Assembly: GCA_016191845.1 (NCBI GenBank)
Contig: JACPVF010000003.1
Location: 310,001 to 374,000 of the forward strand
Length of the DNA stretch: 64,000 nt
From: Chloroflexota bacterium
GTDB lineage: Bacteria > Chloroflexota > Anaerolineae > Anaerolineales > Villigracilaceae
Direction of reading: 5' to 3'
Part shown: piece after piece, positions 7,195-49,084 of the stretch
Position numbering within the stretch: position 1 is the first letter of the stretch
How the letters are laid out: each line of letters begins with the position of its first letter
The notes under the pieces: generated by a model
Seen by the model: only the letters and a program-made list of their open reading frames with translations
Told to the model about the DNA's origin: nothing
Databases searched by the model: none
Program-made: the position numbers and the translations under genes

Positions 7195-8124
7195 TCATGG
7201 TGTATTTGTATAAAACTGTTCTTTCGAAATTTCGCTTAGAGAATGATAACCATATAAATCAGATTCGGGAACATCTTCTACTGCTAAGAAATACCTATCT
7301 TCCTTTTCAGGCAAAAAACCACTGAAATCTTCTGGAGTAGAAAACGAGAACGAAAAGAGGCAGCTTTCTGTAATGTAATTGGTGTCCTGTGTAAGTATTT
7401 TGCAGCCAGCGATGTTCATATTTTCCCTAAATGACAAACTGTACGTTTCTTCCTTAGAAATACAGTTATCACATTCAACTCGAACTCTAAAATCGGCCAC
7501 GCTCCAGCGTTTTTGAATTAAATAAATTGCGGAATCAGCAAATCTGCCAAAAACTGCACTTTCAATTGTAATCCCACCTGGCCCACCTATCAATTTAGTC
7601 GGAGTTTTTATATACATCTTTCCTTCATAGGTTCTTGCTATCAGCTTGACGCTTGGGTCAATCTTGATAACAATGGCAGCATATTCTTTTCCAGGAAGTA
7701 TCTCATCAGTTGTAAAGGTAACTTCCTTGCTGGCCGTCGTTAGTCCGCACGTTGTCTTCAAAGTGTTTTCCTTCGAAAAATCAAACAAAGAAGTTTTTGC
7801 TTCGATTGAAAATGAATCGATGCCGAGAGCAACATTTCGCCAAGTATTTCCGATTTGCACCAGGCAAATACTTATTCTTAGATTTCTCATGGAAACATCG
7901 TCACTGCTTGTGATTGATATATTCGCTCCACTCTCAATAGGCCCGTTATTTTGAAAACCCATCAATAAACTGGTATGTTCCTCAGGAGTATTTATTGGAG
8001 TGCTTGTCATAGGCAAAATCGTTGATATGGTAAAAGGAGTTTTAGCCTGAGTGCTTTCTGACGACGAACATCCAGTCACAGCGAACATAACAAGGAGAAT
8101 GATTGGAAGTCTAATCTGATTCAT
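7195..8124 (-). CDS. Hypothetical lipoprotein, AT-rich
   Basis: 309 residues. The signal IILLVMFAVTGC ends in a lipobox Cys, followed by a Ser/Thr-rich linker (about 20-50) as in other lipoproteins of this window. The rest is predicted beta-rich and contains four or more Cys, including VECDNC, that may form disulfides after export. I recognise no family. Codon use is clearly AT-richer than the neighbours on both sides, which suggests a lineage-specific or transferred gene. The minus-strand fragment at 8164-8373 has the same base composition. Confidence 0.6.
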   Translation of the reverse strand: MNQIRLPIILLVMFAVTGCSSSESTQAKTPFTISTILPMTSTPINTPEEHTSLLMGFQNNGPIESGANISITSSDDVSMRNLRISICLVQIGNTWRNVALGIDSFSIEAKTSLFDFSKENTLKTTCGLTTASKEVTFTTDEILPGKEYAAIVIKIDPSVKLIARTYEGKMYIKTPTKLIGGPGGITIESAVFGRFADSAIYLIQKRWSVADFRVRVECDNCISKEETYSLSFRENMNIAGCKILTQDTNYITESCLFSFSFSTPEDFSGFLPEKEDRYFLAVEDVPESDLYGYHSLSEISKEQFYTNTP

Positions 8125-8163
8125 TGTGATGTATCCTCCAAGAACTGATCAACAAATTAAAGA

Positions 8164-8373
8164 TTAATGCGGCGGACAAGGAAGTACAAAGGGGATTGGA
8201 GAAAGAGTCGTCGCATCAGTCCAGATAGAACAAAAACATGTATCAGGACAGGCTTGAGATTCGAATGAGACGCATTTTACATTCCCATCCTCATCAAAGT
8301 TATTATACGTTCGCGGCGTATGTATGACAAGAAAACAGATTGCCAATTGCATGGCTACACCGCATCTTGACAT
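8164..8373 (-). pseudogene. Possible fragment of a Cys-rich exported protein
   Basis: An open frame of 69 codons whose visible part has seven Cys, with CPDTCFC in the middle and ending FVLPCPPH. A hydrophobic stretch near the start (LAICFLVIH) could be a signal. No good ribosome-binding site is present, and the frame begins inside the TTGACA element of the T-box promoter on the other strand. It may be the remnant of a gene cut when this AT-rich patch formed, or simply a chance frame. Confidence 0.3.
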
Positions 8374-8394
8374 TCCGCCGTTTTTGCAGATAAT
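8367..8394 (+). promoter_or_regulatory. Sigma-70-type promoter of the T-box/pheST transcript
   Basis: A perfect TTGACA at 8367-8372, a 16-nt spacer and GATAAT at 8389-8394. The predicted transcript start is near 8401, about 25 nt before the first T-box landmarks, so the leader RNA is made in full. Confidence 0.7.
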
Positions 8395-8400
8395 TCAAGT

Positions 8401-8684
8401 CAACAGGCGAGCCTATAAAGGCAGTGACAGAGGAAAGTACGTCGGCAGATGCCGCCAGAGAGGCGCAGGAAACGCTGAAACCCGCGCTCGACCGAAACCG
8501 ACCGAAGTTCCCTCCCGAGCCGTTCAGGTGAAATTGCAGTAGTCTGAACCGCAGTCCCAGCGTTACAGGGGAGGCCGATGATGGTCGGCACAAAGTGAAT
8601 CAGCCCTTCGACTTCGCTCAGGGCGATTAATTTGGGTGGTACCGCGGGAACTCCCTCCCGTCCCAATGTGGACGGGAGGTTTTT
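8401..8684 (+). promoter_or_regulatory. T-box riboswitch, Phe specifier (TTC), upstream of pheST
   Basis: The antiterminator T-box core GGTGGTACCGCGGG lies at 8635-8648 and is followed by a terminator (CCTCCCGTCC at 8654-8663 with GGACGGGAGG at 8670-8679, then TTTTT). Upstream, stem I carries the loop-E strands AGTA (8436-8439) and GAA (8504-8506). One base after GAA comes TTC (8508-8510), the place where the specifier codon sits in known T-boxes such as glyQS. TTC is a Phe codon, matching pheS/pheT downstream. Uncharged tRNA-Phe should bind and prevent termination. Confidence 0.93.
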
Positions 8685-8701
8685 ATTTTCAGGAGGCAGA
8701 C

Positions 8702-9040
8702 ATGGATCAGGTGCTTTCATGGGTGACCGCCCTCTTGTGTGTGGTCTACGGCGCGTTGACCGCCTTTGCGGGCTTCGGCCAGGTGCAGGCCAAGAAGATC
8801 CAGCCTTGGGCCGCCTGGGGCATGCTCTTCTGCGGAGCCCTGGTCGTCGCCGCAGGCATGATGACCCTGCTTGGATTGCCCAGTGCGCTGTGGCTGCTGC
8901 TGCTCGGACTGATCGGCATCCATGCCCTGGCGATCAACAACGGGTTTCAATTGTATGGAAAGATCAACCCGTCGCATCACCTCGGCCGTTTGTTTATCTC
9001 GATCCTCTTGTTTGGATTGACCTATCTGGTTTTGAAATAA
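8702..9040 (+). CDS. Small multi-pass membrane protein in the pheST operon
   Basis: 112 residues from the ATG at 8702, chosen because AGGAGG (8691-8696) is at ideal distance. Upstream in-frame starts would lie in the T-box terminator. About four hydrophobic helices cover nearly the whole chain, with a short charged loop (GQVQAKKIQPW) and NNGFQLYGKINP near the middle. I do not recognise a family beyond a general DUF-type integral membrane protein. It is the first gene after the Phe T-box and sits 15 nt before pheS, so it should be induced by phenylalanine starvation. That invites, but does not prove, a role in uptake or membrane physiology. Confidence 0.75.
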   Translation: MDQVLSWVTALLCVVYGALTAFAGFGQVQAKKIQPWAAWGMLFCGALVVAAGMMTLLGLPSALWLLLLGLIGIHALAINNGFQLYGKINPSHHLGRLFISILLFGLTYLVLK

Positions 9041-9055
9041 TTTTTTGGAGGAAGA

Positions 9056-10114
9056 ATGCAGGACAAGTTGAATGCCATTGAAAAGGCTGCGCTCGAGTCG
9101 CTCGAGTCCGTCAAGGACCAGGCTGCACTCGACGCGTGGCGTGTGGCCCACGTGGGCCGCAGTTCCCCGCTGATGCAGGTCTTCTCCGAACTGGGTAAAC
9201 TCTCGAAGGAAGAGAGACCCGTCGTGGGGCAGGCCGCCAACAAGGTCAAGGTGGCGCTCGAAGCCGCGCTTGCCGAACGGACGGAAGCGGTCAAGGCTGC
9301 AGCGTTGGCCAAATCCCTCGAGGAGGAGCAGCTCGACGTCACGCTACCCGGGCGGACGGTCAATGTCGGCCGCCTGCATCCATCCACGCAGCAACTGCGC
9401 CGCGTGCTGGACATTCTGGCAGATATGGGATTCCAGGTCTACACCTCGCCCGAGGTCGAAAGCGACGAGATCAACTTCCAGATGCTGAACTTCCCGCCGC
9501 ACCACCCCGCGCGCGAGATGCAGGATTCGTTCTACGTCGAGGCTGGAGATCGGGGCGACAACCCGATCCTAATGCGGACTCACACATCCCCGGGCCAGAT
9601 CCGCGCGATGCGCGAGTTCGTGGCGATGAACCCCTCGGACCCGCCCGCCATTCGCATCGCCCTGCCTGGCATGTGCTTCCGTTATGAGCAGGTGACCACC
9701 CGCTCGGAGATGCAGTTCAATCAGGTGGAGGGTCTGGTCGTGGGCAAAGGCATCACCTTCGCCGACCTGAAGGGCACCATCGCTGATTTCGCCCGCCGCA
9801 TGTTCGGACAGGATGTGCGTACGCGCTTCCGCGCCTCATACTTCCCATTCACGGAACCCTCCGCCGAAGTGGACGTGGAATGTTTCGTGTGCGGCGGCAA
9901 GGGCTGCCAGGTCTGCAAGAACTCGGGCTGGCTGGAGATCATGGGCTGTGGCATGGTCCATCCTGTCGTCCTGCAAAACGGCGGCTACGACCCGAAGGTC
10001 TACTCAGGCTTCGCCTGGGGCATGGGCCCCGAGCGCCAGTTGCTGCTGCGCTACAAGATCAATGACATCCGCTATTTCTGGGGAAACGATATGCGTTTCC
10101 TCTCTCAATTCTAG
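9056..10114 (+). CDS. pheS: Phenylalanine--tRNA ligase alpha subunit
   Basis: Catalytic class II subunit of the alpha2-beta2 enzyme that charges tRNA-Phe. 352 residues. The N-terminal coiled coil (about 1-85) precedes the catalytic core. Motif 2 region is seen as GMCFRYEQVTTRSEMQFNQV and motif 3 as GFAWGMGPERQLLLRY near the C-terminus. A Cys-rich insert CFVCGGKGCQVCKNSGW (about 277-293) matches the metal-binding-like loop found in a subset of bacterial PheS. GGAGG is just upstream of ATG. It is co-transcribed with pheT under the T-box. Confidence 0.97.
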   Translation: MQDKLNAIEKAALESLESVKDQAALDAWRVAHVGRSSPLMQVFSELGKLSKEERPVVGQAANKVKVALEAALAERTEAVKAAALAKSLEEEQLDVTLPGRTVNVGRLHPSTQQLRRVLDILADMGFQVYTSPEVESDEINFQMLNFPPHHPAREMQDSFYVEAGDRGDNPILMRTHTSPGQIRAMREFVAMNPSDPPAIRIALPGMCFRYEQVTTRSEMQFNQVEGLVVGKGITFADLKGTIADFARRMFGQDVRTRFRASYFPFTEPSAEVDVECFVCGGKGCQVCKNSGWLEIMGCGMVHPVVLQNGGYDPKVYSGFAWGMGPERQLLLRYKINDIRYFWGNDMRFLSQF

Positions 10115-35974: not shown

Positions 35975-36001
35975 AAAACGACCTGCCCATCTGGCCAGGT
36001 C
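35975..36001 (-). terminator. Terminator of the amylosucrase gene
   Basis: On the minus strand GACCTG/CAGGTC with a 10-nt loop is followed by GTTTTT. The left arm overlaps the last bases of the stop codon. A second hairpin, TGCGGCT/AGCCGCA (35930-35944), is downstream. Confidence 0.7.
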
Positions 36002-37946
36002 ATGCAATGGAAAAGACCATCAACTCCAACGGCGCGAGGATCAGGTCCTGCTGCAGAATGGGCTGGCTGATGCCATAGGCCACCTGCGCAGCCTGGCAAT
36101 GGTATTGTTGCAGGATGCGGGCAGGGATAACCTGTTCATGCTCGGAAAAGTTGGCGAAGACCACGGCGCGGTCGCCATCATGCACACGCTCGAACCCAAG
36201 CACGTGCTGATTCTCGGTCTCGATAATTTCCAACCTGCCGCCCGAGAAAGCATCGTGACCCTTGCGCAAGCGGATCAACGCCTGTAGATTGCGGTACACG
36301 CGGCCCTCCACGGTTTGCGGGTCGTTGCGTTTTTCATAGCGCCCCCAGTCTGCCTGCGGACGATGGACCCAACGGCTGTCGCGCGCGTGGGAGGGATTGT
36401 CACGGAAGCCGTAATCGTTCAGTGTGGCGATCTCGTCGCCGAGATACAACAGAGGGATTCCTCCCACCAGCAGGATCACACCGTGGATGAGCAGGATGCG
36501 GCGAATAGCCAGTTCCACTTCGGCGGGACCTTCCTCGTAGAGCGCCTTCTCCAGCCCGGCCAATGAGGCGCACGACCCGCTGATGCGGCAATCGCCCGTC
36601 TTGGGATTCTCCTGAAAGGGCAGGCCACGCGCAAAGCTGCCGGGGAAACGCCCGCGATAGAACTCGTTGAGAAAACGACGATGGTCACCGCCGTTGACGC
36701 CCAGATGCGCGGCATCTTCATCCGAGAAGGTCCAACCGATATCGTCGTGACAGCGCACATAGTTGACCCAAGCCGTCTCCGGGTGGATCTTGAAGCGGGT
36801 CGCCAGAGCCTGCGAGAGCAGCCGCACCTTGCGGGTGGCCAGCGAATTCCACAACAACGCCATGAGCAATGGATTGTACGAAAGCTGGCACTCGGCCGGG
36901 TCGATGTAGCGGGCCACCTCGTCGGGATGGACGATGGCCTCGGACTTGAACAACAGTGCGGGAGCCGAAATGCGCGCCACCGCATTGAAAGCCTGAATCA
37001 ACTTGTGCGCCTCAGGCAGGTTTTCGCAATTCGTCCCCAATTGTTTCCAGATGAAAGCCACCGCGTCCAGGCGGATGACTTCCACGCCTTGATTGGCCAG
37101 GAACAACATCTCGTCGGCCATGCGGTTGAAGACCGACGGGTTGGCGTAATTCAAGTCCCACTGGTAGCTGTGGAAGGTGGTCCACACCCAGCTGCCATCG
37201 GGCAGCCGCGAGAAGGATCCTGGGTGCTCGTCGGGGAAGATCTCGCGCAAGGTACGTTCGTATGCATCGGGCATGTCACGGTCGGGATAGATGCGATACA
37301 TCTCGCGGAAGTCATCCTCGCCTGTGCGGGCCTTCTGCGCCCAGATATGCTCGTCGGAGGTGTGATTGAAGACCAGGTCCACCACCAAGCTGATGCCCAC
37401 CGAGCGCAGATCACGCGCCAGTGAGGACAGTTGCTCCATCGTGCCGAGGCGTTCATCCACGACGCGGTAACTGCTCACCGCATAACCGCCGTCATTCTCG
37501 CCCTCGGGGGCCTTGAAGAGCGGCATCAGGTGCAGATAGGTCAGGCCCAATTCCTTGAAGTAAGGGATTTTGGAGCGCACCCCTTCCAGGTCGCCTGCAA
37601 ACAGGTCCACGTAGATCACACCGCCCAACATCTGATTCGACTGGAACCAGAGCGGGATCCGTTCCCGGGCCGAGTCCAATTCCCGCAGGTCGGCGGGGCG
37701 ACTCAACCAGGTCCGCGCCAACCGCAGAAACAAATCCTCGAGGTGATAAAAGAAATCGTAGCGACCGCCATACAACTCCAGGTATAGGCGGAATAACGCC
37801 GGGAAATGTGCCTGCAACCGCTGCTGGAATTGTTCCCAGCCGGGCGGATCGGCGGCGATCTCAGCCGACAGTGCAGCTTCGACGCGCGGCAGCAGGCGCG
37901 ACAACGTTCGTGATAACTCGCGAGGTTGGAGTGGGGTAGGTTCCAT
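36000..37946 (-). CDS. Amylosucrase (GH13_4)
   Basis: 648 residues from the ATG at 37946. GH13 conserved regions in order are VVDLVFNHTSDEH (I), VIRLDAVAFIWKQLG with the nucleophile Asp (II, about 293), ALLFKSEAIVHP with the acid/base Glu (III, about 333) and RCHDDIGWTF (IV, about 400). The long HDD-IGW and the RISGSCASLAGLE segment match amylosucrases, which make alpha-1,4-glucan from sucrose with release of fructose. An all-helical N-terminal domain (about 1-100) is also typical. It follows the broken GH32 gene by 22 nt. No good Shine-Dalgarno sequence is visible. Confidence 0.9.
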   Translation of the reverse strand: MEPTPLQPRELSRTLSRLLPRVEAALSAEIAADPPGWEQFQQRLQAHFPALFRLYLELYGGRYDFFYHLEDLFLRLARTWLSRPADLRELDSARERIPLWFQSNQMLGGVIYVDLFAGDLEGVRSKIPYFKELGLTYLHLMPLFKAPEGENDGGYAVSSYRVVDERLGTMEQLSSLARDLRSVGISLVVDLVFNHTSDEHIWAQKARTGEDDFREMYRIYPDRDMPDAYERTLREIFPDEHPGSFSRLPDGSWVWTTFHSYQWDLNYANPSVFNRMADEMLFLANQGVEVIRLDAVAFIWKQLGTNCENLPEAHKLIQAFNAVARISAPALLFKSEAIVHPDEVARYIDPAECQLSYNPLLMALLWNSLATRKVRLLSQALATRFKIHPETAWVNYVRCHDDIGWTFSDEDAAHLGVNGGDHRRFLNEFYRGRFPGSFARGLPFQENPKTGDCRISGSCASLAGLEKALYEEGPAEVELAIRRILLIHGVILLVGGIPLLYLGDEIATLNDYGFRDNPSHARDSRWVHRPQADWGRYEKRNDPQTVEGRVYRNLQALIRLRKGHDAFSGGRLEIIETENQHVLGFERVHDGDRAVVFANFSEHEQVIPARILQQYHCQAAQVAYGISQPILQQDLILAPLELMVFSIA

Positions 37947-37968
37947 AAAATACCAGGAAAGAAGAAAC

Positions 37969-39369
37969 TCAGCTGAGGGAGTACAACTCAAGCTGGCGAA
38001 TGTGCAACGAACCGCCTTCGACAAACAGGTCCAGGCTCTGACTTTCGGGAGCGGGGAAGATGCCCTCGGTCAACGTCACGCGGCCGTGACCCGCAAACAC
38101 CTCCACAGATGAACTATCGAGGAGGATGCGCAGGTTCGCCTCCGCCTCATCCATTGGCAATGGCGCAGAATGGACCGCGGCAAACTCATCGGCAAAACTC
38201 ACCTGTCCCGAATGAGTACGGTCCACGCTGAGAGTGCACGCCGCCATGTCACACACGATGACGGTGGCTTCATCCGCGCCGACCCGCACGCGGAAACCGA
38301 AGCGCGTGACCGACGAATCAGGCGACAGGTCGGCGAGGATTTCCAGACAATCGCCGTGCATCCCCGTCAATAGATTTTCGCCGGGACCGATTGCCTGGTC
38401 CCGCCAGTGGAGATGTTCGCCACGACGGGCCTCGATCTCACGAACTGGCTGCTGGGCCAGGTGGATGCCCTGCTCTGTTACGACAAGGGTCAATTCGCGC
38501 GGCAGGCTGAACATGCCGCGCCAGGCTTCGGCAGGGATCATGTTCGCGTAACGCCAGTTGTTCATCCAGCCCAGCATCACGCGGCGGTCATACGGCTCCT
38601 CATTCCAAGATTGCGGCGCATAGAAGTCTGAACCATAATCCATCCATAAAATGGTCTCGGGCGGATTCTCGGAAGTGAAAGTAGAACCGTCAAACTGCCC
38701 GATGAAATATTGGGTGCCTGAACCGCCCGCAGGTCCGCCGCTGCCAACCCCCACGGTCAACACCCAGCGGGTCTCGGGACCGCCGTCCACGGGGAGCGGG
38801 AACAGATCAGGCGTCTCCCAGACCCCTTCCAGAGAACCGCATCGGCCGAATTCACCAGAGGGAGACCACGCTTTGAGGTCGGGTGAAACAAAGAAGCGGA
38901 TCACATCTCCCGCTGCCAGGCACATCACCTAATGATCCACATGCCAGAAGACCCTGGGGTCGCGGAAGTCCTTCACGGCGGGCGGAGGTGTGAGAACCGG
39001 GTTCCCCTCGTATTTCCTCCACGTGCGGCCATGGTCAAGGCTGAAGGCCAGGTGTTGAGCCTCCCTGCCCGGCTGGTGATGGGTGAAGATCGCGACCAGG
39101 GTCTGCGCGCCGAACCCAGCCGTATCATGCCAGTCCACCACAGCGCTGCCAGAGTAGATCATGCCGATCTCGTCGGGATACAGTGCGATGGGCAGATGTT
39201 GCCAACGGAGCAGGTCGCGGCTGACGGCGTGTCCCCAATGCATGGGGCCCCAGATAATGTCGTTAGGATTGTGCTGATAGAACAGGTGATATTCGCCGTC
39301 GAAATAGACCAGACCGTTGGGGTCGTTCAACCAACCGTCTGATGGCGTGAAGTGGAAGCGGGGTCTCAT
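37969..39369 (-). pseudogene. GH32 beta-fructosidase (sucrose hydrolase), interrupted by in-frame TAG
   Basis: Reading from ATG at 39369, the frame has WLNDPNG with the nucleophile Asp, HWGHAVSRDLLRWQHLPIAL, and FRDPRVFWHVDH, then TAG at 38931-38929. Translation then continues in the same frame for 320 codons with VMCLAAGD, WETPDLFPLP (the acid/base Glu) and the C-terminal beta-sandwich. No frameshift is present. In relatives the residue before VM is Trp (TGG), so one G-to-A change explains the stop. The rest of the gene is intact, implying a recent mutation, a sequence error, or suppression. Confidence 0.9.
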
Positions 39370-39410
39370 ATAAAACCGTGTCTTCTATCAAAGATGTATG
39401 AGTATATAGA

Positions 39411-39436
39411 AAGTGGACTGGTTGCCCAGTCCACTT
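39411..39436 (-). repeat. Hairpin between permease and GH32 genes
   Basis: AAGTGGACTGG and CCAGTCCACTT around a 4-nt loop. No T-run of note on the minus strand. TATACT reads on the minus strand at 39406-39401 and could be a -10 box for the GH32 gene, though no -35 supports it. Confidence 0.55.
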
Positions 39437-39450
39437 CTCCCGTTGCAAGG

Positions 39451-40320
39451 TTAACCTTTGACTGAGCCTGCCAACAACCCGCGCACAAAATAGCGCTGCA
39501 AGCCAAAGAACACGAGCAGTGGAATAATCAGAGAGATGAATGAACCTGCCGCCACATCCCGCCAGCCCTGGCCGTATTGGCCAAGCAATCGCAACAGGCG
39601 ATAGGTCATCACCGCCTTCTGTTCGCCAACAAAGACAAAGGCGATCAGATAATCGTTCCAGACCCACAGGAACTGGAAGATCGCAAAGGAAGCGAGAGCC
39701 GGAACGGACATCGGCAGGATCAGTTGCCAGAAGATCTGGTAATTACTGGCGCCGTCCACTCTGGCCGCCTCGATCAATTCCTTGGGCAGGGTCATCATGT
39801 AATTTCGGAAAATATAGATTGCCAGCGGCATCGCAAAAGCACTGTGAACAACCCAGGCGCTGGCATACGTACCGGTCAGAGGAATGTGGAATGCCTTTTG
39901 AAACGCGACCATGCCTCTGAGCACCGGGATCAACGAAGACTGCAGAGGTATCACCATCAGGGCGACCAGCATGGCAAAAAAGAATTCTTTGCCTTTGAAG
40001 TTCAGGAATGTGAATGCGTAGGCGGCATTGGCCGCGATCATGAGAGGGAGGATGGTCGCCGGTACGGTCACCGCAATGGTGTTGATCAGGGATGCCAACA
40101 TGCCGCTGTCGAGCGAATTTTGATAGGCATCGAGAGTCCAAACCGTGCTGAGCGGATTGAACAACGCCTCCCACCATGGAGAAATTTCGGCGACCGAACT
40201 CGGTCTGAGCGATGTGATGAGCAGGCCAAGCGTGGGCATGGACCACAATACAACCAGGACCAGCATCCCAAGAGCGCTGCCCAACTTTTGATCTCTAAGA
40301 ATATGCGTTATTCTATTCAT
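39451..40320 (-). CDS. Carbohydrate ABC transporter permease (MalG type)
   Basis: 290 residues from the ATG at 40320, with AGGAGG at ideal distance. Six hydrophobic segments. The EAA loop reads ELIEAARVDGASNYQIFWQLILPM, seen here as KELIEAARVDGAS and NYQIFWQLILP; this contacts the ATPase. The start overlaps the stop of the upstream permease (ATGA). No ATPase (MsmX type) is encoded here, so a shared ATPase elsewhere is likely, as in many sugar systems. Confidence 0.92.
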   Translation of the reverse strand: MNRITHILRDQKLGSALGMLVLVVLWSMPTLGLLITSLRPSSVAEISPWWEALFNPLSTVWTLDAYQNSLDSGMLASLINTIAVTVPATILPLMIAANAAYAFTFLNFKGKEFFFAMLVALMVIPLQSSLIPVLRGMVAFQKAFHIPLTGTYASAWVVHSAFAMPLAIYIFRNYMMTLPKELIEAARVDGASNYQIFWQLILPMSVPALASFAIFQFLWVWNDYLIAFVFVGEQKAVMTYRLLRLLGQYGQGWRDVAAGSFISLIIPLLVFFGLQRYFVRGLLAGSVKG

Positions 40321-41297
40321 CGCAGAGCCTCCTGATGTCGCGCAGTTTGAATTTGCAGCCACATGAGCGGCATGATCAATATCACCAATATTGTCACAAC
40401 AGCGGAAGCGGGTCCGATGTTGGAGTTTTCGAAGAATTGCTTGTACCATTCAAAGGCCAGCACGCTGGTATTGAAATTGCCGCGGGTCATGGCCAGCACA
40501 ATGTCGAAGATCTTCATCACCAAGATCAAGACCGTGACAAAGACCGACATCACCGTCCCCCAAACCTGTGGCAGAATGATGTTGAAGAAGACTTGCCACG
40601 GGCTTGCGCCGTCCAACTGGGCGGCCTCGATGGTCTCTTCCGGCACAGCTTTGATCGCGGAAGAAATGACGACCATGGAGTAACCCACCTGTAGCCATAC
40701 GATCACAGCCATGAGCAAAAATGAATTCAGGCGTCCCTGGTCCATCATGAGCCAGGGCTGTGTCTGCAATCCAAGCGTCTTGACTACTGCGTTCAATAGA
40801 CCGACTTCCGGCCGTCCCGGCGCCACATAGGCATAGAAATAAGACCAGATCGTCGAGGCCGCGACAAAACTGATCGCCATCGGCATGAAAATCAGGGATT
40901 TGAATATGCTCTCGAGTCTTGGCCCCACCTGATTGGAAAGGGCCGCAGAGGCGGTGCCAAACGCGACCGTCACAGCCGGCACCACCAGCACCCACAAGAA
41001 GTTATTCAGTAGAATTTGCAGGAAACGGATGTCGGTAAACAGATCGACATAATTTTTGAGGCCGACCCATTCCTTGGCTCCATCATCCATAAAAGACCAG
41101 ACCACAGTCTGAAATAACGGTGCAACCAGCACCATGATTACCAGCACTGCGGCAGGCGTCAAAAAGGATAGCCAATCGCTTTTCAGACGAACACGTTCCG
41201 GGAGCAGGGAGATGATGAAGTTAAGCAGCCAATACAATCCGTAACTGGCCGCTACTCCAATCACAATGGCAACCAGACCGAATAAGATGTCGCTCAT
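40317..41297 (-). CDS. Carbohydrate ABC transporter permease (MalF type)
   Basis: 326 residues. An N-terminal pair of helices precedes the ABC fold, as in MalF-type permeases. The EAA motif reads ETIEAAQLDGASPWQVFFNIILP. FMPMAISFVAASTIWSYFYAY is a typical mid helix. It follows the binding-protein gene and a strong hairpin, and overlaps the next permease by four bases. Together with the solute-binding protein it imports a sugar, probably sucrose or raffinose-type given the neighbours. Confidence 0.92.
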   Translation of the reverse strand: MSDILFGLVAIVIGVAASYGLYWLLNFIISLLPERVRLKSDWLSFLTPAAVLVIMVLVAPLFQTVVWSFMDDGAKEWVGLKNYVDLFTDIRFLQILLNNFLWVLVVPAVTVAFGTASAALSNQVGPRLESIFKSLIFMPMAISFVAASTIWSYFYAYVAPGRPEVGLLNAVVKTLGLQTQPWLMMDQGRLNSFLLMAVIVWLQVGYSMVVISSAIKAVPEETIEAAQLDGASPWQVFFNIILPQVWGTVMSVFVTVLILVMKIFDIVLAMTRGNFNTSVLAFEWYKQFFENSNIGPASAVVTILVILIMPLMWLQIQTARHQEALR

Positions 41298-41340
41298 ATC
41301 TCAACCTCCGTGTGCTTGGTCTTTGTTGGGTCTGCTAAAG

Positions 41341-41374
41341 AAGGTGGCACCGGCTTTGGCCGGTGCCACCTTTT
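41341..41374. repeat. Strong hairpin after the solute-binding protein gene
   Basis: A 14-bp perfect stem (AAGGTGGCACCGGC/GCCGGTGCCACCTT) with loop TTTG. On the minus strand it stands 13 nt after the binding-protein stop. Such hairpins often keep binding-protein mRNA more abundant than permease mRNA. Confidence 0.75.
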
Positions 41375-41386
41375 CCTGTTTATGAA

Positions 41387-42703
41387 TTATGGATACTTGC
41401 TGTCGATGCGCGCGGCAGCGTCGGCCCAAGTGACACGGCCTGCGACGAAGTCAGTGCCGGCCGCCCAGAACTCAGCGTTGACTTCAGCCGGCATCTGGTC
41501 AGAGCCATCGAAACCGAACACGGCGGCGTTGGCCATGGCAGCACCGATCTTCCGCTGCATCTCATTCGGATAGAGCGAGAGGTCGAAGGTCTTGTGCGGG
41601 GAAATGTCACCGGTAGCGACCTGATACTTCAGAACATCCGGGCTGAAGATATAGGCGGCAACCTTGGCAACATCCTGGTCGACATGGCCCTTAAAGACGG
41701 CTGCGATATCGCCACCGCCGATGACGCCAGCCTGACCGCCGTCAGGAGCGGGCAGCGGGAACACATCCAGGTGGGTGTAGTCTCCGGCAGCGATCTCAGC
41801 CTGGATATCCTCGGGCATGAAGGCGGTGATGAACGAGCCCTGGCGCAGCAGGAAGCACTGGCCGTTATCCTTGCCGTCCGCAAACAAAGGAGCGGTGTCC
41901 TGGAAGGAGTCGGTCGCCATCGCAATGCCGCCGCCATTGACCTGGCCGTCGGCCAGCAGATGCTTGGATACTTCGTCCACAGCCTTGGTCACTTCGGGGG
42001 AGGCAAAATCGACCTCACCGGCAATCCACTTGGCGTACGCATCGGGACCGTTGTAATCGAGCACATACTGTTCGACCCAGTCAGTGAAGGGCCAGCCGGT
42101 CGCGCTACCAGACTCGATGCCTGCGCACCACGGGTAGCCAGCGCCGTCAGCCTTGATCTTCTCTTCGAGGGCAGCCAGTTCCGCAGCATTGGTCGGCACG
42201 GTATAGCCGTGAGCCTTGAAAGCGGACGGGTTGTAGAAGACCAGGGATTTCATGTTGGCGGAAACAGGCAGGCCATAGATCTTGCCATCGACCACCGCCA
42301 GTTTATCCCAACCAGGCACCAGAGTGGACTGCGGGACGCTGACGTCAATGACCTGATCGAGCGGGACGAGACGATCGGCCAGGGCCTTCAAACCACCCGG
42401 CTGGGGCCACATGGCGATGTCAGGCTCCTGCCCGGCTTCGATCTTCACCTTGATGTCGGTGTCGAAGCTGGCGAGGGAAGTGAACGTGATCTCGATGCCG
42501 TTGGCTTTGCCGAACTCGGTCAGCGCCTTCTGGAAGGCAGCGCCTTGCGCTTCGCCATAGCCGCCATAGATTATGACTTTGCCGTCACCGGCAGGGATTT
42601 CGTTGGAAGAGGCGGCCGGGGTGGCGGCTGTACCACCACAAGCCGAGAGCAGCATGGCTGCCATGAGCACAAGCGAGACCAATTGCCAGAAACTTCGTTT
42701 CAT
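41387..42703 (-). CDS. Extracellular sugar-binding protein (ABC importer)
   Basis: 438 residues from the ATG at 42703, preceded by AAGGAG. The signal MKRSFWQLVSLVLMAAMLLSAC ends in a lipobox Cys. The mature chain is a family-1 solute-binding fold with IIYGGYGEAQGAAFQKALTEFG at the front, and YPWCAGIESGSATGWPFTDW and APLFADGKDNGQCFLLRQGSF later. These resemble alpha-glucoside and oligosaccharide binders. It is the first gene of the importer operon and has its own promoter with LacI operators. The ligand is inferred from the neighbours. Confidence 0.9.
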   Translation of the reverse strand: MKRSFWQLVSLVLMAAMLLSACGGTAATPAASSNEIPAGDGKVIIYGGYGEAQGAAFQKALTEFGKANGIEITFTSLASFDTDIKVKIEAGQEPDIAMWPQPGGLKALADRLVPLDQVIDVSVPQSTLVPGWDKLAVVDGKIYGLPVSANMKSLVFYNPSAFKAHGYTVPTNAAELAALEEKIKADGAGYPWCAGIESGSATGWPFTDWVEQYVLDYNGPDAYAKWIAGEVDFASPEVTKAVDEVSKHLLADGQVNGGGIAMATDSFQDTAPLFADGKDNGQCFLLRQGSFITAFMPEDIQAEIAAGDYTHLDVFPLPAPDGGQAGVIGGGDIAAVFKGHVDQDVAKVAAYIFSPDVLKYQVATGDISPHKTFDLSLYPNEMQRKIGAAMANAAVFGFDGSDQMPAEVNAEFWAAGTDFVAGRVTWADAAARIDSKYP

Positions 42704-42814
42704 TTCTATTCTCCTTCTTGAGTTTGGGTGAAAGTAGAACAAACGCGGCAAGGATCTATTTTTTTGTGGCGGCACCTCCAATTATAGAATAATCTCGGTG
42801 ATAATAGCTATCTA

Positions 42815-42915: not shown

Positions 42916-45000
42916 TCAAATACGCGTGATCTTCAGAATCTTGCTTTGCAGGTTTTTCAATTCCACCTTCAGCCCGGCCTCCATCCATGCGAGGCCCGAA
43001 CGTGGCTCATCGAATCCCTCGACGCTGTATAAAGCCTCGGGATCGAGTCCGCGCAGGTACAAGTGCGGGATGTTGTACTTTTCAGGCACGTGCACGCGGA
43101 ATACGAATAGCACGCCCTCGGCCTTATCCTGGCTGACATATTGCACCGCCGAAAACGGTCCCATCTGCGGGGAGAGCAGGCGATATTGTTCACCTAACTG
43201 CACAATGGGACGGATTTCCTTATATTGACGGATGCACTCCGTGGCCAGGGCGCGGTCGGCATCATTCCAATTGAGCAGGTTGCCCCCCACCCCCAAGGAT
43301 CCACACATGCTGACGTGAAAACGAAACTCCAAAGGTACGAATCCCTCATTCCAATCAGTCACCCAGGCTTCCATGGTGATAGCGGGCAGGAAGTGGGAAT
43401 AGCCTTCCTGGATGCGGAGCCGCGAGGTGGCTTCAGTGTTATCGCTGACCCAGACCTGGTCGGCCAGACGCAGGATACCCAAATCGGCGCGGCCGCCACC
43501 GCTGGCGCAACTCTGCCAGATGACGTTCGGGTGCCGCTGCCGCAGCTCGCCCCATACACGATAGATACCCCACACGTAGCGCATCCATAACTCGCGCGGA
43601 TCTCCGGGCGCATCAGGCCAGCCCGGCTCACTGGCCGCGCGATTCATGTCCCATTTGATGAAGGCAATATTATTCTCGGTCAGCAACTTATCCAACACGC
43701 CCAGCACGTACTCCTGCACGTCCTCCCGCGCCATGTTGAGGATGAGCTGATTGCGGCTCTCGGTGCGGGCACGGGTCGGGAAGTGGATGACCCAATCGGG
43801 ATGAGCGCGATACAAATCGCTGTCGGGGTTGACCATCTCGGGCTCGACCCACAGGCCGAAGTCCATGCCCAGGTCGTTGACTTTCTGGATCAGCCCGCCC
43901 AGCCCGTGTGGGAACTTGCCCTCGTCGGGCCACCAATCGCCCAGGCCCGCGTTATCCCACTTGCGGCCGTGGAACCAGCCATCATCCATGACGAACAATT
44001 CCACGCCCATCTGCGCAGCAATTTCCGCCAATGCAGATTGGGACGCCTCGTCCACGTCGAAGAGGGTCGCCTCCCACGAGTTATACAGGACCTTATGCGG
44101 CGTCCCCCCATGCGGCAGCACCCGCTCCCGCACATACGCATGGACCTGTCGGCTGGCTCCGCCAAACCCACCCTTGGTATAGCCCGCCAGCGCCGGCGGC
44201 GTATCCAATGGCCGACCAGGCTGCAGCGTCCAGCCGAAGTCCCAATCGTTCCAGCCAAGGCTGACGCGCGTGGAGGCAAACTCGGTCACCTCGGCGTTGA
44301 TGCGGAAGTTTCCACTCCAGGCCAGCGTGCCAAACCAGACCTCGCCGCTGTCTTCGTTCGCCGAGCGGTCGATGGCAAACCACGGCACGGCGCAATGGCT
44401 GGGAATAATGCGGCGACTCTCGATGGTCTTCAGGCCGGGCGTGAGCGGCTCGCGTTGCAGGTTGAACTCATCGAGGTGACGGCCATACATGTGCGTGAGA
44501 AAATAATCGTCGCCGGGCGGAAGAGTCCACTTGGCAGAGAAGGCCCGCTCCACGTGGATCGGTTCCGTGCCCAGGTTCTCGAGTGTGACCCAGCGTTCGA
44601 TCAGGTCGTAGTCCGCGTGGACGCGATAGTGCAGGGTAACCTGCAAAGGATAATAGACATCCTTTAAACGGATGGACAGCTCGGGCGTGGACGAGTCCGT
44701 CACGGACGAATCCACAAAGGTCAGCACTGCGTCCCGCACCCCATCTGCGAAGCGCACCTTGAGACACGGGTCGATGTACTTGGTGCCCGCTTCGGCGGGA
44801 TATTCCTCGGGCACGAAGTGGTGGAAGCCGTCGGTCGAGGCGAACCCGCTTGGGTCGGGCGGGATGGGGTAATCGTCGAGGCGCGGCAGGCGCGCGCGCC
44901 AGTAATGATGCGTGACCAGCCCCACAGAGTTGAGGCCGAAGGCGTAAGCGGTTTGGCGGGTTTCAAGGACCCAGCGTTGGCTGGAAATGTGGATGGGCAT
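42916..45000 (-). CDS. Alpha-galactosidase (GH36)
   Basis: 694 residues from the ATG at 45000, with AAGGA upstream. The N-terminal beta-supersandwich precedes the TIM barrel. The nucleophile Asp is in FIKWDMNR (about 451), the acid/base Asp in WVSDNTEATSRLRIQEGYS (about 518), and WQSCASGGGRADLGIL is the substrate-binding loop. LFVMDDGWFHGRKWDNAGLGDW is the family motif at the barrel start. It hydrolyses alpha-1,6-galactosides such as raffinose and melibiose, whose sucrose moiety would pass to the downstream enzymes. It is 46 nt after lacI. Confidence 0.93.
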   Translation of the reverse strand: MPIHISSQRWVLETRQTAYAFGLNSVGLVTHHYWRARLPRLDDYPIPPDPSGFASTDGFHHFVPEEYPAEAGTKYIDPCLKVRFADGVRDAVLTFVDSSVTDSSTPELSIRLKDVYYPLQVTLHYRVHADYDLIERWVTLENLGTEPIHVERAFSAKWTLPPGDDYFLTHMYGRHLDEFNLQREPLTPGLKTIESRRIIPSHCAVPWFAIDRSANEDSGEVWFGTLAWSGNFRINAEVTEFASTRVSLGWNDWDFGWTLQPGRPLDTPPALAGYTKGGFGGASRQVHAYVRERVLPHGGTPHKVLYNSWEATLFDVDEASQSALAEIAAQMGVELFVMDDGWFHGRKWDNAGLGDWWPDEGKFPHGLGGLIQKVNDLGMDFGLWVEPEMVNPDSDLYRAHPDWVIHFPTRARTESRNQLILNMAREDVQEYVLGVLDKLLTENNIAFIKWDMNRAASEPGWPDAPGDPRELWMRYVWGIYRVWGELRQRHPNVIWQSCASGGGRADLGILRLADQVWVSDNTEATSRLRIQEGYSHFLPAITMEAWVTDWNEGFVPLEFRFHVSMCGSLGVGGNLLNWNDADRALATECIRQYKEIRPIVQLGEQYRLLSPQMGPFSAVQYVSQDKAEGVLFVFRVHVPEKYNIPHLYLRGLDPEALYSVEGFDEPRSGLAWMEAGLKVELKNLQSKILKITRI

Positions 45001-45046
45001 CGTGTCCTTCAAAAAGGAGTGGGACTGGTTGGTCCGCCCCAAAAGT

Positions 45047-46051
45047 TCAGGCTGTTTCGCGCTCCACGAGGGTGAGCGGCAGGTGGATCTGCTGGGCCGG
45101 GCGCGACGGGTCGGCGATGCGCGAGAGCAGGATCTCCACCGCCAGGCGGCCCGACTCGTCGAGGTGCTGGCGGATGGTGGTCAGGTCGGCATACTCGGCC
45201 ATGTCAAGGTCATCGAAGCCGACCACAGCCAATTGCTCGGGGACGCGGATGTTGAGTTGGCGCGCCGCCTTGAGCACGCCCAGCGCCTGGAAGTCCGTGG
45301 CAGCGAAGATGGCCGTCGGCGGCTGAGGCAGGTTGAGCAGCTCGGCCGCCACCTGGCGTGTCTGCTCCTGGGTATAAGGCGCCAGGCGGACGAAGTTCTC
45401 GGGCAATTCGATCTTCGCCTCCGCCAGCACTTGACGGAACCCAACCAAACGCTGGCTGACGGGATGGATGGCGTATTCGGGCAGGTCCGTGTCGCCGAGG
45501 AAGGCAATTCGGCGATGCCCTTTGTGGATGAGATACTCCGCCGCCAGCCGCCCGCCCGCCACATCGTCGATCTCGACACAACTCAAAGCCGAGTGCGGAT
45601 ACTCGATCAGCACAGTGGGGATGTTGTGCGATTCGAGACGGCGCACGTTGGCATCACTGATCGGCAAAGACATGATGACCAACCCGTCCAGGTTGCCGGT
45701 CAACGGGATGGAGGCGAAGTAGTTCTCGAGGTGCGAGGCCGATTCGACGGTGTAGATCACCAATTCATAATTTTCCTTGGTGAGGGCAGCGGCAATTCCA
45801 CGCAGCCGCTGGACGAAGGAGGGTGCGGTGAAGAAGGGCGTGATGACGCCGATCCGCCCGGTCTGGCGCAAGGCCCGCGCGCGGGCCTCCGCTTTGGGCA
45901 CAAACCCAAGCTCGTCGATGGCCGCCAGGATGCGGTCCCGCGTCTCTGCGCCGACCTTGTCTGGGGCGTTGAGCATTCGTGAAACGGTGGTAATGCTCAC
46001 CCCGGCCCGCTGGGCAACATCGTAAATGGTGGGAGTTTTATTCGTAGCCAT
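45047..46051 (-). CDS. LacI-family transcriptional regulator
   Basis: 334 residues from the ATG at 46051 (an in-frame ATG at 46057 is possible). The DNA-binding part reads TIYDVAQRAGVSITTVSRMLN, split as TIYDVAQRAGVS and ITTVSRMLNAPDKV, followed by the hinge helix. The effector domain has IGVITPFFTAPSF, HRRIAFLGDTD, PTAIFAATDFQALGVL and VVGFDDLDMAEY. It is autoregulated by an operator overlapping its promoter and probably represses the importer operon through the same sequence. The inducer is likely a sugar of the raffinose/sucrose type. Confidence 0.95.
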   Translation of the reverse strand: MATNKTPTIYDVAQRAGVSITTVSRMLNAPDKVGAETRDRILAAIDELGFVPKAEARARALRQTGRIGVITPFFTAPSFVQRLRGIAAALTKENYELVIYTVESASHLENYFASIPLTGNLDGLVIMSLPISDANVRRLESHNIPTVLIEYPHSALSCVEIDDVAGGRLAAEYLIHKGHRRIAFLGDTDLPEYAIHPVSQRLVGFRQVLAEAKIELPENFVRLAPYTQEQTRQVAAELLNLPQPPTAIFAATDFQALGVLKAARQLNIRVPEQLAVVGFDDLDMAEYADLTTIRQHLDESGRLAVEILLSRIADPSRPAQQIHLPLTLVERETA

Positions 46052-46074
46052 GAGCACCAGAGATGAAAGGATTT

Positions 46075-46116: not shown

Positions 46117-46354
46117 ATTCAAGGGCTACAAATGCGGCGTGGTAAACTGTCGTGCAAGGAGAATCAGATACGACCACAGCCACCGCCCTCGCCCGTCCGA
46201 ATATCGCCTTGGCGATGTAATCCCAAGGGAACACAATATATGATGACTACGGGGCTGGTTTTGCCTGGCGTGAAGATATGCTTCAGAAACAACCATAGTG
46301 AACCCCAAACGTACATAAAGGCAGCCTTTCAAAACAGTTTTGGATTCCCCTTCT
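46117..46354. other. Intergenic stretch without recognised gene
   Basis: Divergent gap between the lacI promoter and the LAL regulator. Short frames on both strands look accidental. GCAAGGAGAATCAG (about 46153) resembles a ribosome-binding site, but no sensible frame follows. I see no clear promoter for the regulator. Confidence 0.4.
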
Positions 46355-49084
46355 ATGCCCAGCCTTCTTATCAAAACAAAGACCAACATCCCCGTACTCA
46401 AACGTGATCTGGTTCCTCGCAAACGGATCAACGAAGCGCTCTCTAAAGGGCTTCACGCTGGACGCAAACTGACCTTGATCTCTGCTCCGGCTGGGTTTGG
46501 TAAGACTACGCTGGTTTGCGAATGGTTGGAGATATGCAAGATCCCTGCCGCGTGGATTTCGCTGGATGAAAATGACGGCGATGCCGCCCGCTTCCTGACT
46601 TACCTTGTCACTGCTCTGCAAACCCTGATCTCTGGCGTCGGTGACAGTGTTTTGGCGGCGCTTCAATCGTCACAACCTGTTGCTGCCAAAGACCTGCTGA
46701 TCACTCTGCTCAATGAACTATCTTCAATAGAAGATGGTTTCATCCTCGTCCTCGATGATTTTCACGCAATAGATTCCAAGGCTGTGGATGATCTGCTGGC
46801 GTTTCTGGTGGACCACATACCGCCGCAGATGCACCTCGTTATTACCACCCGCGAAGACCCAGCCCTACCCCTCGCCCGCCTGCGTGCCCGCAACCAGCTG
46901 ACCGAAGTCCGCGCCGCCGAGTTGCGTTTTACCGAAGACGAAGCCGCCGCTTTCCTCAATCAGGTCATGGGATTACAACTTTCGACTGAAGACATCGCCG
47001 CATTGGAAGCCCGCACCGAAGGCTGGGTGGCAGGGCTGCAATTGGCGGCACTCTCCATGCAAGGCAAAACGGATGCGACCGACTTCATCCGCTCGTTCAG
47101 CGGCGCGAATCAATTTGTGCTCGATTATCTGCTGGAAGAAGCACTGCAAAAACAGTCTGAATCTCTGCAAAGGTTTTTATTACGAACATCCATCCTGGAC
47201 CGTTTGAATGGTTCATTGTGTGATGCCTTGTGGCTGGGCGAAAAAAACTCAGCACAGGAGATATTGGAGCAGTTAGAACGTGCCAACCTCTTTGTCATTT
47301 CATTGGATGATGAACGGCGCTGGTATCGCTATCATCATCTTTTCCGCGACCTGCTTCGTCAACGATTGAATCAGAAGCTTGACAAGGAAGAGGTTGCGGG
47401 AATACACATCCGTGCGAGTGAGTGGTTTGAGCAGAATGGCGACATTGGAGAAGCCTTCCGTCATGCCATGGCCGCCGAAGATTTTGAACGAGCTGCCCGA
47501 CTGACAGAGAGCGCCTGGTTGGGCATGGACGAAACCTTCCAGACTGGCACCTGGCTCGGGTGGGTGAACCAGCTCCCGTTAAGTGTGAGGCGGGTTCGTC
47601 CTGTGCTGTTAACACAAATGGGGTGGTCCTATATGGATGCGGGCAATGCGGAGGCGAGCGAGTCAAGTTTGAAGGATGCCGAAACCTGCTTGAAAAATCC
47701 GCTTGAAGATCTGGTAATTGTCGAAGCAGAACAATTCCGTGCGCTGCCCACGCGGATCGCGATGGCGCGCGCCTACAACGCGCAAGTGCAGAATCGGTTT
47801 GCCGACACGGTCAAATTCGCTGAAATGGCGCAAGACATGGCGCCACCTGACGATGTATTTTTGCAGGCACAGGCGTCGGCGATTCTGAGCGGCATATATT
47901 GGGCAAGCGGCGAACTGGACAAGGCGTATACGTTCATGAGCGGTTGGGTGAACGTGGCGCAACAGGCGGGCAATGTTATTTTTGCGGTTGCGGCTTCGTT
48001 TAGTAAGGCGGATAATCTAATTGCACAAGGCAGGCTGCACGCCGCAATACAGGTGTATCAGATCGCTTTGGATTTGGCAGCGGCGCATGGCATAGAAAAC
48101 ATTACCGCACATCATCATTTGGGTCTGGGTCTGCTGTATCACGAAATGGGTGAGGATGAACGCGCTGCAAGTCATTTACAAAAGTCTTTTGAACTCGGCA
48201 GGCAAACCCCCATTGTGGATTGGACCTATCGCAAGAATTTGGCACAGGCCTATTTGAAAGAATCTGAAGGCGATCACGACGCCGCATTGGAAGCCTTGAA
48301 TGAAGCCCAGCGTTTTTACGTGCGTACACCCATTCCCAACCTACGTCCCGTGGATGCGATGATGGCGCGCATTTATCTCCAACAAGATCGTCTGGATAAA
48401 GCTCAAGCATGGGCCGCCAAAAGCGGGATGTCTTTGCTTGAAACGCCCGATTATTTGCATGAATTCGAGCGGCTCACACTGGCTAAAATTGCGCTGGCGG
48501 AATATCAGCACGACCAGAACGAACAGCATATTCTTGATGTGTTGAAGTTGTTGGAAGGTCAATTAAAGTTGGCGCAGGAACAAAATCGTCTGCGCAGCCA
48601 AATTGAGATTCTTGTTTTACAAGCCTTTGCCTTGCAAGCAAAGGGAGAGGCTGCTCAAGCGATTTCTTCATTGGAGAAAGCCCTGTCTCTTGCAGAACCA
48701 GAAGGCTACCTGCGCATTTTTGTGAATGAAGGCGAATTCTTGCGATTGTTGATTTTGGATGTACGATCTGCGGTTGAAAAATCGCCATACTTTTTGTTTG
48801 GCTATCTGGAAAAACTTCTAGCTGAATTCCCTCAACCTACAGAGTTCCAACTCCAAAAATCCAAATTCGAAAATCCAAAACCTGAACTGATCGATCCCTT
48901 GAGCGATCGCGAACTTGAAGTGCTGCGCCTCATTGCGCAGGGACTTTCCAACCAGGAAATTACCCAAAAACTTTTCGTGGCATTGAGCACAATCAAGGGA
49001 CATAACCTGCGCATTTTTGCCAAACTGCAAGCCAAAAGCCGCACCGAAGCAGTTGCGCGCGCCCGCGAACTGGGCCTGCTCTAA
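46355..49084 (+). CDS. LAL/MalT-type LuxR-family transcriptional regulator
   Basis: 909 residues from the ATG at 46355. The N-terminus IKTKTNIPVLKRDLVPRKR is typical of MalT-like STAND ATPases. Walker A is APAGFGKTTL, Walker B FILVLDDFHAI. TTREDPALPLARLRARNQLTE is the usual sensor block. Tetratricopeptide-like helices fill about 400-810, and the C-terminus is a LuxR helix-turn-helix (LSDRELEVLRLIAQGLSNQE, seen as DRELEVLRLIAQGL and NQEITQKLFVALSTIKGHN). It binds ATP and an unknown inducer. The following membrane genes are the likely targets because LAL-DUF6326 neighbours recur in such genomes. Confidence 0.93.
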   Translation: MPSLLIKTKTNIPVLKRDLVPRKRINEALSKGLHAGRKLTLISAPAGFGKTTLVCEWLEICKIPAAWISLDENDGDAARFLTYLVTALQTLISGVGDSVLAALQSSQPVAAKDLLITLLNELSSIEDGFILVLDDFHAIDSKAVDDLLAFLVDHIPPQMHLVITTREDPALPLARLRARNQLTEVRAAELRFTEDEAAAFLNQVMGLQLSTEDIAALEARTEGWVAGLQLAALSMQGKTDATDFIRSFSGANQFVLDYLLEEALQKQSESLQRFLLRTSILDRLNGSLCDALWLGEKNSAQEILEQLERANLFVISLDDERRWYRYHHLFRDLLRQRLNQKLDKEEVAGIHIRASEWFEQNGDIGEAFRHAMAAEDFERAARLTESAWLGMDETFQTGTWLGWVNQLPLSVRRVRPVLLTQMGWSYMDAGNAEASESSLKDAETCLKNPLEDLVIVEAEQFRALPTRIAMARAYNAQVQNRFADTVKFAEMAQDMAPPDDVFLQAQASAILSGIYWASGELDKAYTFMSGWVNVAQQAGNVIFAVAASFSKADNLIAQGRLHAAIQVYQIALDLAAAHGIENITAHHHLGLGLLYHEMGEDERAASHLQKSFELGRQTPIVDWTYRKNLAQAYLKESEGDHDAALEALNEAQRFYVRTPIPNLRPVDAMMARIYLQQDRLDKAQAWAAKSGMSLLETPDYLHEFERLTLAKIALAEYQHDQNEQHILDVLKLLEGQLKLAQEQNRLRSQIEILVLQAFALQAKGEAAQAISSLEKALSLAEPEGYLRIFVNEGEFLRLLILDVRSAVEKSPYFLFGYLEKLLAEFPQPTEFQLQKSKFENPKPELIDPLSDRELEVLRLIAQGLSNQEITQKLFVALSTIKGHNLRIFAKLQAKSRTEAVARARELGLL

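Follow-up and report, generated by a model that had tools for sequence, protein, structure and literature searches.

An in-frame TAG in a GH32 gene of a Chloroflexota sugar locus, a candidate for a very young pseudogene

The sugar locus

The window, the whole 64,000-nucleotide stretch of Chloroflexota DNA analysed here, carries a sugar locus on its minus strand in the order LacI-type regulator, GH36 alpha-galactosidase, ABC transporter substrate-binding protein, two permeases, GH32 and amylosucrase. The GH32 gene contains one internal stop codon. The six neighbouring genes are open and match their relatives nearly end to end. The features are listed below in order of increasing coordinate.

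36000–37949, minus strand: amylosucrase gene, directly after GH32 with 19 bases between
37969–38928, minus strand: GH32 gene, part after the TAG; 319 codons from the adjoining GTG, containing WETPD and the C-terminal domain
38929–38931, minus strand: in-frame TAG, codon 147 of GH32; tryptophan in 88 of 89 homologous loci among the matches listed, the region being absent from the other
38929–39369, minus strand: GH32 gene, 146 codons ahead of the TAG and the TAG itself; carries the motifs WLNDPNG and FRDP
39451–40449, minus strand: sugar ABC transporter permease, MalG type; because of an overlap between its ORF and the neighbouring gene, translation may in fact begin further inside
40317–41297, minus strand: sugar ABC transporter permease, MalF type
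41387–42781, minus strand: sugar ABC transporter substrate-binding protein
42916–45042, minus strand: GH36 alpha-galactosidase (melibiase)
45047–46057, minus strand: LacI-type regulator

Two related genomes (G071 and G169) have the same gene order with an extra GH13 gene between the second permease and GH32, and a GH13 gene is likewise placed in two others (G025 and G016). The inserted gene passes a trehalose synthase model in both genomes scanned for it (G071 and G025); none of the scanned GH13 proteins of the window's genome passes that model. In a genome of the same genus (G001), the LacI, GH36, GH32 and amylosucrase genes are consecutive, with no match to a transporter gene in the 20 kb examined. 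The gene content of the sugar locus therefore varies among relatives.

Three further features of the window lie in or beside the locus. Between the second permease gene and GH32 there are 81 bases (39370–39450) at the place where four homologous loci (L207, L208, L209 and L211) have the GH13 gene. The spacer between the genes for the substrate-binding protein and the first permease contains a hairpin of 16 pairs with a 4-base loop (41339–41374); comparable spacer hairpins lie between malE and malF. A large gene for a MalT-like regulator of the LuxR type (46340–49084) adjoins the LacI gene and is divergent from it.

The GH32 frame and its relatives

Positions 39369–37969 of the minus strand form one GH32 frame of 466 codons in total ahead of the terminal stop; the whole-genome search lists the frame at 471 residues and marks ‘1 TAG’ within it. 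The frame is not an uninterrupted one, as a single TAG cuts it at codon 147 (38931–38929). When the stop is translated as X, the Pfam domain Glyco_hydro_32N (PF00251) matches residues 6–308 with 309.7 bits and spans the stop, and Glyco_hydro_32C (PF08244) matches residues 325–463 with 104.5 bits. The motifs WLNDPNG, FRDP and WETPD are all present and align with those of relatives; they correspond to WxNDPNG, RDP and E-x-P, whose roles we take to be catalytic. The TAG falls between the second and third of these motifs. On either side of it this frame scores positively for coding preference (0.44 and 0.37 per codon), and both alternative forward frames score negatively.

An earlier note on this DNA had described one TAG in an otherwise intact GH32 frame, with active-site motifs on both sides, and the Pfam domains, the alignment and the coding preference agree with that description (two motifs precede the stop and one follows it). 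The note had named a frameshift elsewhere, which would make the stop irrelevant, as one observation that would speak against its reading. A frameshift or indel of this kind was looked for and rejected: the alignment is free of gaps at the stop, relatives reading WVM where the window has the stop followed by VM, and the same frame is coding on both sides.

The homologous loci used for comparison comprise the 80 listed matches of a genome scan that found 594 relatives and nine loci from genomes related to that of the window; the 80 may partly duplicate genomes of the latter group. None of the homologue searches was anchored on the position of the TAG. The tryptophan that the earlier note had ascribed to relatives is borne out at every listed locus that has the region, the one without it being L213. 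Close genomes, which the note had proposed as a check, agree. The same-genus genome has an intact GH32 copy. Among 150 genomes sampled from the window's family, ten have a strong GH32 match (E <= 1e-30), and only the window's match has an internal stop; one of the nine stop-free matches (G088) is missing its central part.

The only other stop in a GH32 gene, among the matches listed for the 89 loci, is at a different site in L102. This locus (8001–9446), from a Bacteroidales MAG, has a GH32 gene with a single in-frame TGA at a different conserved tryptophan codon. Single stops in such genes therefore occur elsewhere among draft genomes. The L102 case resembles the window's gene in being an independent single in-frame stop at a conserved tryptophan codon and differs from it in lineage, in the tryptophan affected and in the stop codon used (TGA versus TAG).

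The locus without the region, L213 (G088:C12, 99–4780), is unusual in another way. An internal segment is missing from each of three genes there, those for the permease, GH32 and amylosucrase. The junctions in GH32 and amylosucrase have overlaps of 9 to 13 bases, and the permease continues into a stretch resembling trehalose synthase. An artefact of assembly or amplification is a more likely source of this arrangement than biology.

The rest of the window's GH32 gene appears to be maintained, as judged from column conservation and branch lengths. Conserved columns were taken from 87 of the 89 loci (L212 and L213 were excluded as partial); two more were lost to short coverage, leaving 85 sequences and that of the window. 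The window's gene deviates at two of the 95 columns conserved at >=95%, namely the stop and K139R, and ranks 19th of the 86 sequences in departures from conserved columns, which is ordinary. A tree built with six intact relatives gives it a branch of unexceptional length (0.344, theirs being 0.25 to 0.46). When the two sides of the stop are treated separately, the window exceeds all six relatives in branch length ahead of it (0.32 versus 0.15 to 0.21), and after it only two of the seven branches are shorter (0.35 versus 0.30 to 0.59). The long branch before the stop may be read as a mild sign against full constraint; the pattern is unlike decay after a stop, as the longer side is the wrong side. 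Maintenance of the rest of the gene would mean that the stop is recent, or that it is not real and reflects an error in the consensus.

Origin of the TAG

The most probable reading is that the GH32 gene is a pseudogene of very recent origin or that a null allele of it is segregating in the population sampled. A single transition would have converted the conserved tryptophan codon to TAG. Translation would end at 146 residues, so that the product would lack the third catalytic motif and the larger part of the catalytic domain and would not be expected to be an active beta-fructosidase. A second GH32 copy that could compensate for the loss was looked for and not found: the genome-wide search gives one GH32 match, the copy with the internal TAG. 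The gene combines a disabling change with copies in relatives that are free of the same change, as expected of a pseudogene. It shares with young single-nonsense bacterial pseudogenes, as generally known, one stop in an intact conserved frame, intact relatives and another substrate route nearby. Compared with these nothing here is distinctive, and in the present case we infer the loss of product from a base that may be an error. The gene is an ordinary pseudogene candidate and biologically unremarkable.

What stands against a nonsense allele is that it is read from one consensus base in one genome, and that the conservation and the absence of a second lesion are equally expected from a sequence error. 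The gene would then be intact in the organism and the TAG a wrong base call in the assembly, which we hold to be unlikely, though well worth reckoning with. Such an error would fit a GH32 gene that is otherwise conserved like its functional relatives, a change of one base only, a single consensus sequence and a genome that is a draft of 18 contigs. Against it, TGG is one transition away from TAG, as expected of a real mutation; the frame has 16 tryptophan codons, and 48 of the 840 possible G-to-A or C-to-T changes give a stop. The site also lacks a homopolymer or repeat and the other genes of the sugar locus are open, but both observations say little about a single substitution. Scans for broken genes over 846 kb of the genome provided no usable base rate: a loose scan gave 280 places including this TAG, mostly gene junctions or shadow frames among the rows listed, and a stricter one gave 67 places and missed the TAG.

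A functional product could also be made if an amino acid were inserted at the TAG with sufficient frequency to yield full-length enzyme. The good conservation on either side of the stop would suit such readthrough, but the decoding machinery and the other loci argue against it, and we regard it as very improbable. TAG is a normal terminal stop in this genome, ending 154 of 689 coding ORFs in 846 kb (TAA ends 310 and TGA 225). Both release factors were found, the PTT and SPF motifs being presumably those of RF1 and RF2, respectively. No CTA anticodon is present among 43 tRNA matches (an RF00005 search, with ARAGORN run on the stretches around all 43). Ile(GAT) and Ala(TGC) are absent from these matches in spite of a completeness rating of 99.17% for the genome; the assembly therefore misses some tRNA genes, and the tRNA list is incomplete. 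Such tRNAs often lie within rRNA operons, which drafts tend to miss. A search for PylS gave no match above the cut-off, the best match to TIGR02367 scoring 20.2 bits against a cut-off of 178.15; at the E-value of the search, 13 of 14 control genomes also match this model, one of them above the cut-off. Recoding of TAG is thus unlikely, since the codon is in normal terminal use, RF1 and RF2 are present, and neither a CTA anticodon nor PylS was found. The amber suppression that the earlier note had offered as an option, together with its proposed search for a suppressor tRNA, finds no support in the tRNA, release-factor and PylS searches. Programmed readthrough through RNA structure was rejected as well, as the fold after the TAG is ordinary (z 0.88). 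Among the matches listed, no other locus of the 89 has a stop at the same place.

A comparably slight probability attaches to re-initiation, in which ribosomes would restart at the GTG or ATG right after the TAG and produce two chains, which might or might not be active together. In-frame GTG and ATG codons come immediately after the TAG, and 319 codons are then open. However, no clear ribosome-binding sequence is seen by eye ahead of the GTG, and neither chain would have the full set of catalytic motifs. A conserved gene split at the TAG position is ruled out, as none occurs in the 89 loci among the matches listed. In its most speculative form, TAG-GTG-ATG would be a stop-and-restart site and the gene a two-chain GH32 split between the second and third motifs, a natural split glycosidase at its origin; we consider this scarcely credible.

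Substrates and consequences of loss

The earlier note had called the gene a GH32 sucrose hydrolase. Its assignment to GH32 is supported by both Pfam domains, but the sucrose part of the name is tentative, and the enzyme may have acted on sucrose or on fructans: the best three solved matches (8i12, 1y4w and 3rwk) are inulinases, and the models for the scrB family (TIGR01322, 219.2 bits, cut-off 356.4) and for BfrA (NF041092, 193 bits, cut-off 900) score below their cut-offs. The gene shares with GH32 exo-inulinases and beta-fructosidases of this kind both Pfam domains and, in its DNA, the three catalytic motifs; unlike theirs, its frame is cut.

The neighbouring gene, which the note had taken for the amylosucrase and the other sucrose-splitting gene of the operon, is well matched to that role. 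It aligns with the solved amylosucrase 1g5a over residues 36–648 of 649 (E 7.8e-228), and its 14 best solved matches are all named amylosucrase. Among 18 sequences with E <= 3e-133, 15 are named amylosucrase, one ‘amylosucrase or alpha amylase’ and two, with lower scores, ‘sucrose hydrolase’. The enzyme may favour hydrolysis more than a classic amylosucrase does.

The position of GH32 beside an alpha-galactosidase suggests raffinose-type sugars as substrates. In the proposed route, the ABC transporter would import a raffinose-type sugar, the GH36 alpha-galactosidase would cut it to sucrose and the adjoining amylosucrase would then cut the sucrose. We infer all three elements of the pseudogene reading: that the base is real, that activity is lost and that sugar flows as proposed.

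Loss of GH32 looks tolerable in this lineage. Of the 150 genomes in the family sample, amylosucrase is matched in 47 and GH32 strongly (E <= 1e-30) in 10, nine genomes having both. Amylosucrase therefore usually occurs there without a strong GH32, namely in 38 of 47 genomes; this is an upper figure, because some genomes are incomplete drafts. Elsewhere in the window's genome there is a gene for a GH13 alpha-glucosidase (best solved match 3wy1), whose substrates may or may not include sucrose. The early stop in GH32 may lower expression of the amylosucrase, as is common for genes that follow a long stretch of untranslated RNA. Just after the TAG (38914–38895) there is a terminator-like site, but such sites are little commoner here than in shuffled sequence (15 versus 9.2, sd 3.3). 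The turn of the locus toward glucan storage that the earlier note had proposed is therefore unsupported, given the usual state of the lineage, the further alpha-glucosidase and the possibly lower expression of amylosucrase.

If the stop is real, another accessory sugar gene has been lost, and caught before decay, in a lineage that usually has amylosucrase alone. Its use would be one of local annotation, where the GH32 product should not be called an active enzyme without reads; no long-standing question is opened by this stop. Literature searches by title gave no paper on such a locus under amylosucrase in Chloroflexi, and nothing on a GH32 sucrose pseudogene with a premature stop or on a raffinose operon with amylosucrase and GH32.

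An apparent TAG inside the amylosucrase gene of another genome (G156) proved to be no interruption. No stop falls within the part of the ORF that was matched, and the TAG is at the ORF's end.
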